Source: an uncultured Pelagibacteraceae bacterium
GTDB taxonomy: Bacteria > Pseudomonadota > Alphaproteobacteria > Pelagibacterales > Pelagibacteraceae
DNA: 64,000 nt
Assembly (NCBI GenBank): GCA_902615045.1
Contig: CACMNP010000001.1
Coordinates: 1-64,000, forward strand
Direction of reading: 5' to 3'
Position numbers and translations under genes: made by a program. Below the pieces are notes generated by a model. The model did no database searches and was not told the origin of the DNA. It saw only the letters and a program-made list of their open reading frames with translations. Each line of letters begins with the position of its first letter. Position 1 is the stretch's first letter. Positions 1 to 3,196 of the stretch are shown one piece after another.

Positions 1-982
1 AATTATATCTTCCACCTCCACCAACTGATCCAAACTCCACCTCTTGGTTTTTTTGATTTTTAACTTTAAATGTTAAATTTGCCTCAAATATTGGGCCATC
101 ATAATATTCAAGTCCTCTAATAACTTCAGGAGAAAAAATTATTTGATCAAAATTAGATGAATAACTTATTCCATCTAATACTTTATTTAATTCTTCAACA
201 CCATCCTCAACTAATTTGCTTGGTATAGCTGACTTAATCTCATCTAAAGATTTCATATTTATAAAACTGACTATCGCTTCAGCTTGATTATCAGAGAGGT
301 TTGCTCCAATAGTTTTATCACCAGATTTGTCTTCACGTCCTGTTGTAAGCAATTGTTTAACACCATCAGTTCCAACTCTATCAAGTTTATCTATAGCTCT
401 CAAAACAGTAAGTTGTTGTTTGCTTTCTGAAATTTTTAAATTTTCAATAAGTCCTTGAATTAATTTTCTATTACTTAATTTGATTTGATATTGATTTTTT
501 TCTAAGCCACAGAAATATAATGTGTCAGCTAAAAGATTGCACATCTCAGCATCTGCTAAAGGATTACTAGATCCAATAATATCACAATCAGCTTGTGTAA
601 ATTCTCTAAATCTACCAGGGCCGGGTTTCTCATTTCGCCATACATTACCAATCTGATATCTTTTAAAAGGATTTGAGATATTTAAATAATTTTGAGATAC
701 GTATCTTGCTAATGGCGCAGTTAAATCATAACGTAATGATATCCAACTATTATTTTCCTCTTGAAAACCAAATACACCAGAGCTTGGCCTATCTTCATCT
801 GGTAAAAATTTTCCTATATTTTCTGATATTTCAAAACTTGGGGTTTCTAGCTTAGAAAAACCAAATTTTAAAAAATTTTCCTCAATCTTAGCAATTAAAT
901 TTTCTTTTAAAGCTAATTCTTTTCCGTATCTATCTACAAAACCCGAAGGAGTATTTGCAGACAATTTTTTTTCTTTATTCAT
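1..982 (-). CDS. hisS: Histidyl-tRNA synthetase (partial; C-terminus beyond window start)
   Basis: Class II aminoacyl-tRNA synthetase that charges tRNA-His in the cytoplasm. The frame is open from the ATG at 982 to the window edge, so the C-terminal part, including the anticodon-binding domain, is missing. Motif 2 reads 'GNVWRNEKPGPGRFREF' and the histidine-binding loop 'RGLEYYDGPIFE'. From family knowledge, these match the divergent HisRS type of many alphaproteobacteria rather than the common bacterial form ('RHERPQ.GR' and 'RGLDYY.RT'). The start is fixed: 'MNKEKKLSANTPSGF' begins only 4 bases after the 3' end of tRNA-His on the same strand, and no other ATG lies near. No Shine-Dalgarno sequence fits in that gap. 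Co-transcription with the tRNA is inferred. Confidence 0.95.
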   Translation of the reverse strand, partial: MNKEKKLSANTPSGFVDRYGKELALKENLIAKIEENFLKFGFSKLETPSFEISENIGKFLPDEDRPSSGVFGFQEENNSWISLRYDLTAPLARYVSQNYLNISNPFKRYQIGNVWRNEKPGPGRFREFTQADCDIIGSSNPLADAEMCNLLADTLYFCGLEKNQYQIKLSNRKLIQGLIENLKISESKQQLTVLRAIDKLDRVGTDGVKQLLTTGREDKSGDKTIGANLSDNQAEAIVSFINMKSLDEIKSAIPSKLVEDGVEELNKVLDGISYSSNFDQIIFSPEVIRGLEYYDGPIFEANLTFKVKNQKNQEVEFGSVGGGGRYN

Positions 983-986
983 TTTT

Positions 987-1063
987 TGGTACACGGGGAC
1001 AGATTCGAACTGTCGACCTTCGGTTCCACAAACCGCTGCTCTAACCAACTGAGCTACCCGTGC
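987..1063 (-). tRNA. tRNA-His (GTG)
   Basis: Full cloverleaf of 77 bases with encoded CCA. The anticodon loop is TTGTGGA (anticodon GTG), with D-stem GCTC/GAGC and T-stem GACAG/CTGTC. The acceptor stem is GCACGGG against CCCGTGT, so the terminal pair is G1:U72 and the discriminator is A73. The base before G1 is A, so the G-1 that marks almost all other tRNA-His is not encoded. It lies 4 bases upstream of hisS. A TATAAA box about 12 bases before G1 could be its -10 element. Confidence 0.97.
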
Positions 1064-1113: not shown

Positions 1114-1188
1114 TTAAATAGCTAGCTTGCAGCCAGCATGAAAATGATGTCTGTGAGTTTCTCTGTTAATAATAACAAATTTATTCAT
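1114..1188 (-). CDS. Candidate 24-residue His-rich leader peptide upstream of tRNA-His/hisS
   Basis: Short open frame ATG (1188) to TAA (1114), with four His in the six-residue stretch 'HRHHFH'. It lies 51 bases upstream of tRNA-His and hisS on the same strand. The codons after the His cluster can fold into a stem (GCTAGC 1121-1126 with GCCAGC 1132-1137), followed in the - direction by a T-rich tract, as in amino-acid attenuators. No clear ribosome-binding site precedes it, and a + strand terminator-like hairpin starts where the frame starts. The gene could equally be chance sequence or the antisense of a small + strand RNA. Not a recognised family. Confidence 0.3.
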   Translation of the reverse strand: MNKFVIINRETHRHHFHAGCKLAI

Positions 1189-1307: not shown

Positions 1308-1520
1308 TTAACCTAATTTTTTCAAATTTACAGCGCTTGGACCTTTTTCGCCATCTTGAATTTCGAATTCTATAGCATCGTTTTCATTCAAAAATCTTAG
1401 CCCAGCTTCTCTAACTGCGCTCGCATGAACGAAACAATCTTTTTCTCCGTCTTCTCTTTCAATAAAACCGTAGCCCTTCTTACCGTTGAACCACTTTACT
1501 TTGCCTTTTAATGTACTCAT
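1308..1520 (-). CDS. cspA: Cold-shock domain protein
   Basis: Seventy-residue single cold-shock domain (OB fold), the standard size for bacterial Csp proteins. They bind single-stranded RNA and DNA and act as RNA chaperones. RNP1 is visible as 'KGYGFIERE' and RNP2 as 'DCFVHASAV', where Cys replaces the usual Val or Ile of 'DVFVH'. Trp and Phe residues for base stacking ('[11 protein letters not shown]') are kept. It stands alone, with an upstream gap of about 114 bases to tRNA-Phe that would be a long 5' leader, as is common for csp genes. That leader contains the small dyad AGCTA-TAAA-TAGCT (1555-1568). A stable inverted repeat follows the stop codon. Whether it is cold-induced or constitutive cannot be told from sequence. 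Confidence 0.95.
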
Positions 1521-1933: not shown

Positions 1934-3196
1934 TTATCTCCTCATTCTTGATCTTATACTTAAAGCGTGACCATATAATTCTTCATACTCTGCGAGATGT
2001 GTAGCGGATTCTCCTAATTTCTCAATACCTTTTTTTGTAAGAGTTATATGGCTAATTTTTTTATAAAATTCACTAAGATTTAGTCCAGATGAAAATTTTG
2101 CAGATCCTAAAGTTGGCAATACATGGTTTGAACCAACATTATAATCTGAGACAGCCATCGGAGAATACTTTCCAATCATAATACTTCCTGCATTATGAAT
2201 TTGATTTAAATACTTTTTATAGTTAGACACATTAATTTCTAAGTGCTCTGGAGCAACTTCATTAATTGCTTCTATTATTTGCTTATCACTTTGGGCTAAC
2301 ACAATTAATCCATTATTTTTTAAACTTTTTAAAACAACTCTTTTCCTTTGAACTTTTTTGATACTTTCTTTTATTTCTATATTAAATTTATTTGCTAATT
2401 TTTTATCTTTCGTAATTAAAATACACTGGGAGTTTACATCATGTTCTGCTTGTCCAATCATAGATGTTATAACTTGATTTAGATCAGTTTTACTATCTGC
2501 TAAAACACAAATTTCACTAGGCCCAGCGACCATTCCTTCTGTCCCAACATCACCAAAGACTTCACGCTTACTTCTTGCAACATAAATATTTCCAGGCCCA
2601 ACAATTTTATTCACTTTTTGAATATATGCTAAACTTGCTATAGCTTGGGCACCACCCATTGAGTAAATTTCTTTAATTCCAACTTTTCTAGCCGCATAAA
2701 GAACTGCAGGATTAAGTTTTCCATTAAGTTTTGGGTTGGCCAAAACAATTCTTTTTACACCTGAAATTTTTGCAGGCACTGCATTCATTAATAATGTAGA
2801 TGGTAAATTAGCTGGAACATAAATACCTACAGACTGTAGTGGCACATACTTGTATTCAAGTTTATTTTTGAAATCATCTACATACTTAATATTTTTTGGT
2901 TTTTGTAGTGAATGAAACTTAAAAATTCTATTATAAGCTAAATCGATACTTTTTTTAATCTTAGGTTCCAATGTACTAATTGCTGTGTTTACTTTATCTT
3001 TTGAAGGAACTATCTCTGTATTTTTACTAAATTTTTTCTCATACTTTAAAAGTGCTTTTCTTCCATTAATTTTGATGTCTTTTAAAATTTTTGGAACTAT
3101 CGAAGTGTCTACTGCTTTTCCAGATCTCCTTTTATCCAAAAAAGATTCTAATTCTCTCTTATAATTTTTTTTCTTACAATCAATTACTTTTATCAT
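1934..3196 (-). CDS. hisD: Histidinol dehydrogenase
   Basis: Zinc- and NAD-dependent enzyme of 420 residues that oxidises L-histidinol to L-histidine in two steps, the last reactions of histidine synthesis. Visible family signatures are '[16 protein letters not shown]', '[11 protein letters not shown]', the zinc/catalytic stretch '[10 protein letters not shown]', and 'VAPEHLEI' with its catalytic Glu-His. The end '[15 protein letters not shown]' supplies the last zinc ligand region. It overlaps the DUF2948 gene by 4 bases and is separate from any other his gene in the window, as is usual in alphaproteobacteria. Confidence 0.97.

Follow-up and report, generated by a model that had tools for sequence, protein, structure and literature searches.

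RESULTS

A tRNA-His gene between a His-rich leader and hisS

The stretch of DNA analyzed here (the window) comprises 64,000 nucleotides from an uncultured Pelagibacteraceae bacterium. At its left end, translation gives hisS as the N-terminal 327 amino acids of its product (positions 1..982, minus strand), with the ATG at 982 and the rest of the gene cut off by the contig start; in longer relatives hisZ and then hisG follow downstream of hisS. ARAGORN places a tRNA-His(GUG) gene with encoded CCA and a body that we refer to as type A immediately upstream (987..1063, minus strand), and a 4-nt spacer, read from the sequence as AAAA (983..986, minus strand), separates the CCA from the hisS start codon. 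The minus-strand junction thus reads AGAAGGA, then the tRNA from GCACGGG to CCCCGTGTACCA, then AAAA and ATG. Before the tRNA gene lies a translated leader ORF of 24 codons plus stop, MNKFVIINRETHRHHFHAGCKLAI (1114..1188, minus strand), whose His-rich end, THRHHFHAG, runs into a hairpin, GCTGGCT-GCA-AGCTAGC (1121..1137, minus strand). This candidate attenuator was called as a terminator-like site; it comes directly after the last His codon and has an AT-rich tail. The upstream neighbor (1308..1520, minus strand, by translation) encodes a putative cold-shock-like protein of 70 amino acids, and hisD is found in the window at 1934-3196.

tRNA-His without G-1 and a derived HisRS

As the initial annotation had read from the sequence, G-1 is not encoded in the window tRNA-His: the base at position -1 is A, G1 lies opposite U72 and the discriminator is A73. 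Each of the 21 distinct tRNA-His sequences collected from 117 genomes has U72 and A73, and where a genomic G precedes position 1, as it does in some of the 21, it stands opposite A73. No second tRNA-His was found in the window's own genome (1.1 Mb, 74% complete, 18 tRNAs found), which has one tRNA-His and one hisS match, and the relatives G003 and G011 (single-contig assemblies) and G015 also have one tRNA-His each, the G015 set consisting of 30 distinct tRNAs read out of 32 hits. A Thg1-like enzyme (PF04446) gave no match in the own genome, incomplete as it is, and none in the 147 genomes of the order searched; among 14 control genomes Methanosarcina alone gave a match.

The adjacent hisS does carry RNEKPGPGRFREF and RGLEYYDGP, and the enzyme is not of the common bacterial type, since for a full-length relative (L007) the comparison gave 174 bits with human HARS and 65 bits with E. 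coli HisRS. We presume that the PG of the window loop is the place to which the rule of Gly for Gln applies. This replacement in the motif-2 loop characterizes derived HisRS in the accessible part of PMC3937112, and the window enzyme has the trait, judged by RNEKPGPGRFREF together with a score nearer to the human than to the E. coli enzyme. At two other loci (L146 and L147) the motif-2 loop reads RQEKADSAR in place of RNEKPGPGR, yet the tRNA-His body is A, as in the window. No match to hisS was obtained in G040, G078 and G129, rated 92-97% complete, even with a full-length query.

That this clade has lost G-1 and acquired an unusual HisRS in parallel was correctly stated in the initial annotation and is already in print. 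In SAR11, A73, absence of G-1 and the derived HisRS loop occur together in 7 of 8 strains, according to the accessible sections of PMC3937112, so the combination as such is not a new finding.

The tRNA-His-hisS junction across the order

The physical linkage noted in the window is real and general in the family. Among genomes of family f1 (SAR11) with the locus examined, tRNA-His adjoins hisS in 120 of 121, and the locus of the sole exception, G109, ends 44 bases upstream of hisS. When 80 named loci were considered, the two genes were linked in 68/68 from SAR11 and in 0/12 others. The gap from CCA to ATG measures 3-7 nt in 116 of 117 genomes (28 nt in G046), and is 4 nt in most. In all seven genomes of family f2 that gave both positions, tRNA-His and hisS share a strand, with the tRNA 1.4-2.4 kb upstream. 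Loci were fetched from 129 genomes of the order, of which 117 matched the junction pattern; the 12 genomes outside the 117-genome counts are eight from f2 whose loci were fetched by way of the tRNA, G001 and G007, both linked though outside the pattern, G110, linked as well, and G109. These genomes are a non-random draw from the hisS matches that were listed, which are part of the matches in 272 of 297 genomes, with some added through a tRNA query. Loci L215-L294 overlap the 117 genomes, hence counts over 69 loci and over 117 genomes are not independent.

A His-rich leader and a hairpin precede the tRNA gene

An ORF with at least 2 His codons occurs at the same place in 69/69 SAR11 loci, and leaders across the family have 14-34 codons, with ends such as THRHHFHAG, STHRxCFHSL, GVHAHFHAG, SHSHRMHA and STHRYHPHA. 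Defined as at least 2 His within the last 14 codons, the leader was found in 116 of 117 genomes compared with 99 of 7220 background windows, those carrying the leader motif having been set aside. Leaders that precede tRNA bodies of types C1 and C2 (see below) mostly have only 2 His codons, and that of G107 has one. In the sister family f2, where the ORF with most His was chosen, a leader ORF with 3-5 His and then a hairpin precede 8 of 8 hisS genes; a leader of the HHHxHI type, MIVFTHHHIHI, is an example, and hisS-hisZ-hisG follows with no tRNA between. At 12 other hisS loci, a 4-His ORF was seen upstream of one, and at most 2 His or no ORF at eleven.

Conservation of the leader peptide gave a mixed result. 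Within four groups of leaders sharing a motif, a grouping that itself biases toward low pN and to which 23 of the 161 distinct leaders do not belong, pS was 2-3 times pN in the 8-codon His core and about equal to it over the six preceding codons. If leaders are instead grouped by tRNA body and anchored at the hairpin, pS/pN is 0.42/0.25 in the His core against 0.48/0.49 before it for body A, and 0.69/0.41 against 0.52/0.55 for body E. The contrast is weak or absent for bodies C1, C2, C3 and D, in which leader groups and registers are mixed. Grouping by body thus weakens the evidence for a conserved peptide, and the case for an attenuator rests on the recurrence of the leader at one place and on the f2 leaders.

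Each of 56 distinct segments has the hairpin at the His codons and folds below 5% of its simple shuffles, in a test that used whichever His codon of a leader gave the best fold downstream. The hairpin stems vary yet stay paired (GCTGGC/GCTAGC, ATAGCC/GGCTAT, GCTAGGC/GCTTAGC, GCAAGC/GCTTGC). The tails are AT-rich but mostly have no clean T run, and the T run is weak in several types. The leader stop codon falls within the hairpin or directly after it, so that a ribosome translating to the end of the leader would sit on the hairpin as well. In the window leader, the one leader folded whole, no alternative antiterminator was seen, and the full 132 nt fold no better than shuffles (z 0.23). An Rfam scan of five representative loci with E up to 1 returned no T-box; its hits were ten tRNAs and, below threshold, a single match to a plastid family. 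A separate tRNA promoter may lie between hairpin and tRNA, where none was established.

The tRNA-His body is highly variable

The 21 distinct tRNA-His sequences of the 117 genomes fall into body types A (36 genomes), C2 (29), D (25), E (12), C3 (8), C1 (6) and C4 (1), and a further body outside these types occurs in L228 and L243. Identity between types goes down to 0.50-0.60 within one genus. Over the positions that could be anchored for comparison (1-9, 27-43 and 49-76), the invariant ones are 1, 2, 8, 30-38, 40, 53, 56, 61 and 71-76. In Caulobacter the tRNA-His identity set consists of A73, U72 and the anticodon, as given in the accessible part of PMC9976931, and the invariant bases 1, 2, 30-38 and 71-73 match it.

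Histidine is the least conserved isoacceptor in 5/5 within-genus comparisons of genomes with different bodies (identity 0.54-0.58; medians 0.83-0.96). Against the partial G001 set it was the least conserved twice, second of 13 once and third of 7 once, and between G000 and G015, which share a body, it ranks 14th of 16. Strong divergence was also observed for tRNA-Phe, tRNA-Arg(ACG) and tRNA-Gln between G003 and G011, which belong to one genus (identity 0.64-0.69).

Several sources of the bodies were considered. Remolding of another tRNA of the same cell by an anticodon shift found no donor, with non-His tRNAs reaching at best 0.62-0.70 identity to bodies A, C and D in the tRNA sets of G003 and G011 and the partial sets of G000 and G001. 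C3 and C4 are intermediate between bodies C and D and favor rapid divergence within this group. Body C2 had no match in phages, nor in 385 genomes of the class beyond SAR11, although the latter search, which contained no genome known to match, shows nothing. Body A matched 188 phage records, but those listed are mostly annotated as tRNA-Ile, -Thr, -Phe or -Asn, so this reflects a general likeness of tRNAs.

Type D needs attention for a practical reason: ARAGORN missed it in 4/4 loci shown (L069, L071, L073 and L075). Its T loop is unusual (AGCGTAA in L069, L071 and L073) and resembles the T loop of tRNA-Val(GAC) in those genomes, and the usual D-loop GG is absent. The Rfam tRNA model still detects it in G003 with 50.6 bits.

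tRNA bodies and HisRS alleles re-assort

In 20 genomes of the genus to which the window belongs, HisRS shares 95-99% identity with the window enzyme, and all other matches listed are at most 58% identical. A HisRS tree has two deep lineages, and body A accompanies enzymes from three HisRS lineages separated by deep splits. For each of A, C2 and C1, the branches supported by SH-aLRT values of 95% or more require at least 3 changes of tRNA type, and for each of D, E and C3 they require 2; the support values come from a quick search, which gave a warning about long branches. Six loci (L146, L147, L267, L273, L284 and L285) combine body A and a hisD that is 90-95% identical to the window-type reference L217 with a HisRS that is only 47-49% identical to it; for L147, whose body A has one base changed, and L285 the values are 94-95% for hisD and 47% for HisRS. 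Binning error is unlikely for G015, because this genome is a single contig, and the AG- isolates are presumably single cells. An origin of the G015 HisRS outside SAR11 was not borne out, the sole named organism among 120 listed hits being Pelagibacter sp. HIMB1587 with 84%. Judged by hisD, the partner that moved is clear only for loci like those of G015 and G046. The gene hisD is itself mosaic, with 67-70% identity in several loci whose window-type HisRS is 95-98% identical.

DISCUSSION

In this study we characterized a family-wide arrangement of leader ORF, hairpin, tRNA-His, 4-nt gap and hisS, whose order and recurrence are read directly from the sequences. The His-rich leader and hairpin before the tRNA would point to shared regulation as the reason for the linkage. 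We consider it likely that leader, tRNA-His, hisS, hisZ and hisG form one operon under a his attenuator, which would be read through when charged tRNA-His is scarce, and such control would explain why tRNA and synthetase gene are linked. A ribosome stalled at the His codons would cover the 5' arm of the hairpin, the hairpin could not form, and more tRNA-His, HisRS, HisZ and HisG would be made. Processing of the tRNA 3' end would then leave the hisS message nearly leaderless. The simplest evolutionary account would be that the attenuator goes back to the common ancestor of the order and that tRNA-His came to lie within the operon in family f1. Counting against attenuation are the weak T tracts, the position of the stop codon in or just past the hairpin, an antiterminator that was not seen and the 2-His leaders of types C1 and C2.

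The initial annotation had proposed a different role for the linkage, namely that a co-evolved pair of tRNA-His and HisRS is preserved as a cassette and inherited or transferred together. Co-transfer of such a pair into SAR11 was discussed by Wang et al., as related in the accessible sections of PMC3937112. The near-constant adjacency in f1 would fit this idea, as would the fact that bodies A and E go with the PGPGR loop, and C and D with other loops, in 114 of 116 leader-bearing genomes (exceptions G015 and G046). However, the supported branches of the HisRS tree require repeated changes of tRNA label, and the six loci described above keep body A and a window-like hisD next to a distant HisRS. 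With bodies and alleles exchanged across the junction, the linkage does not appear to keep a co-evolved pair intact, and we regard the cassette as unlikely.

The short distance from CCA to ATG in most genomes might also suggest autoregulation, in which HisRS would bind the tRNA part of its own message and thereby block the hisS start codon close by. Binding of a synthetase to tRNA-like structures in its own mRNA is known, as described in the accessible part of PMC9976931. Processing would normally sever the tRNA from the message and the His-rich leader would be left unexplained, so we think this explanation quite improbable, even if both mechanisms could act. Finally, chance joining during genome compaction (SAR11 genomes have few long spacers), with ORF and hairpin as functionless leftovers, might be favored by the weak terminator tails and by the f2 arrangement, in which a deletion could join the two genes, but it seems very improbable to us given a His-rich ORF at one place far above background, hairpin stems that change while pairing is kept, and His leaders before hisS in f2 too.

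If attenuation is accepted as the likely form of control, a more specific scenario can be formulated, to which we give an even chance: the tRNA-His gene was captured within an older operon with a his-leader attenuator, so that it is controlled by the very codons it reads, closing a feedback loop between tRNA, synthetase and histidine synthesis; with G-1 gone and identity cut to the acceptor end and anticodon arm, the body became the free part that is rebuilt and swapped from lineage to lineage independently of HisRS. A G-1-independent HisRS would mainly read acceptor end and anticodon, and therefore the rest of the tRNA would be free to change. Such freedom would be in line with the many bodies seen at this position and with their exchange relative to HisRS alleles.

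SAR11 bacteria count among the most abundant cells of the ocean, and few regulators are known from them. An amino-acid attenuator heading a tRNA gene, if true, would reveal how supplies of tRNA, synthetase and amino acid are kept in balance in these bacteria, with the prediction that tRNA-His and HisRS are switched on together when charged tRNA-His is short. The natural swaps of body and HisRS within one genus offer a ready-made test of histidine-identity bases after loss of G-1. For annotation it matters that genomes with body D can appear to lack tRNA-His, as ARAGORN missed it in the four loci shown.

What is new here is the adjacency across the family, the His-rich leader with its hairpin, the diversity of tRNA bodies and the way these are combined anew with HisRS. 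The leader, its hairpin and the diversity of bodies had escaped the initial annotation. Neither a his leader in SAR11 nor a tRNA gene under such a leader was reported in the literature searched, with subscription journals mostly outside its scope; both are absent from the accessible sections of PMC2704228, PMC2965389 and PMC9413887, and a term search of PMC4833913 gave nothing. The closest parallels are the his attenuators of gamma-proteobacteria and the His leaders before hisS* or hisZ in bacilli, which, as far as the accessible parts of PMC2965389 and PMC9413887 describe them, likewise have a short His-codon-rich ORF and then a hairpin in front of histidine genes, hisS or hisZ among them. 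In SAR11, by contrast, the first gene after the leader is a functional tRNA-His gene, an antiterminator was not seen and some leader types have few His codons. With synthetase mRNAs bound at tRNA-like structures (PMC9976931 and PMC6542539, accessible portions) the locus shares a tRNA structure near the synthetase start codon, but in SAR11 the putative binding site is the tRNA gene itself in place of a mimic. The locus agrees with the G-1-less system of the RRCH clade and SAR11, as set out in the accessible sections of PMC3937112 and PMC9976931, in the absence of an encoded G-1, in A73, U72 and the derived loop, and in that no Thg1 was found. It differs in that some SAR11 HisRS loops are not PGPGR (AGNGR, SGNAR and ADSAR), that the tRNA body is highly variable inside one genus, and that the tRNA abuts hisS inside an operon headed by a leader.
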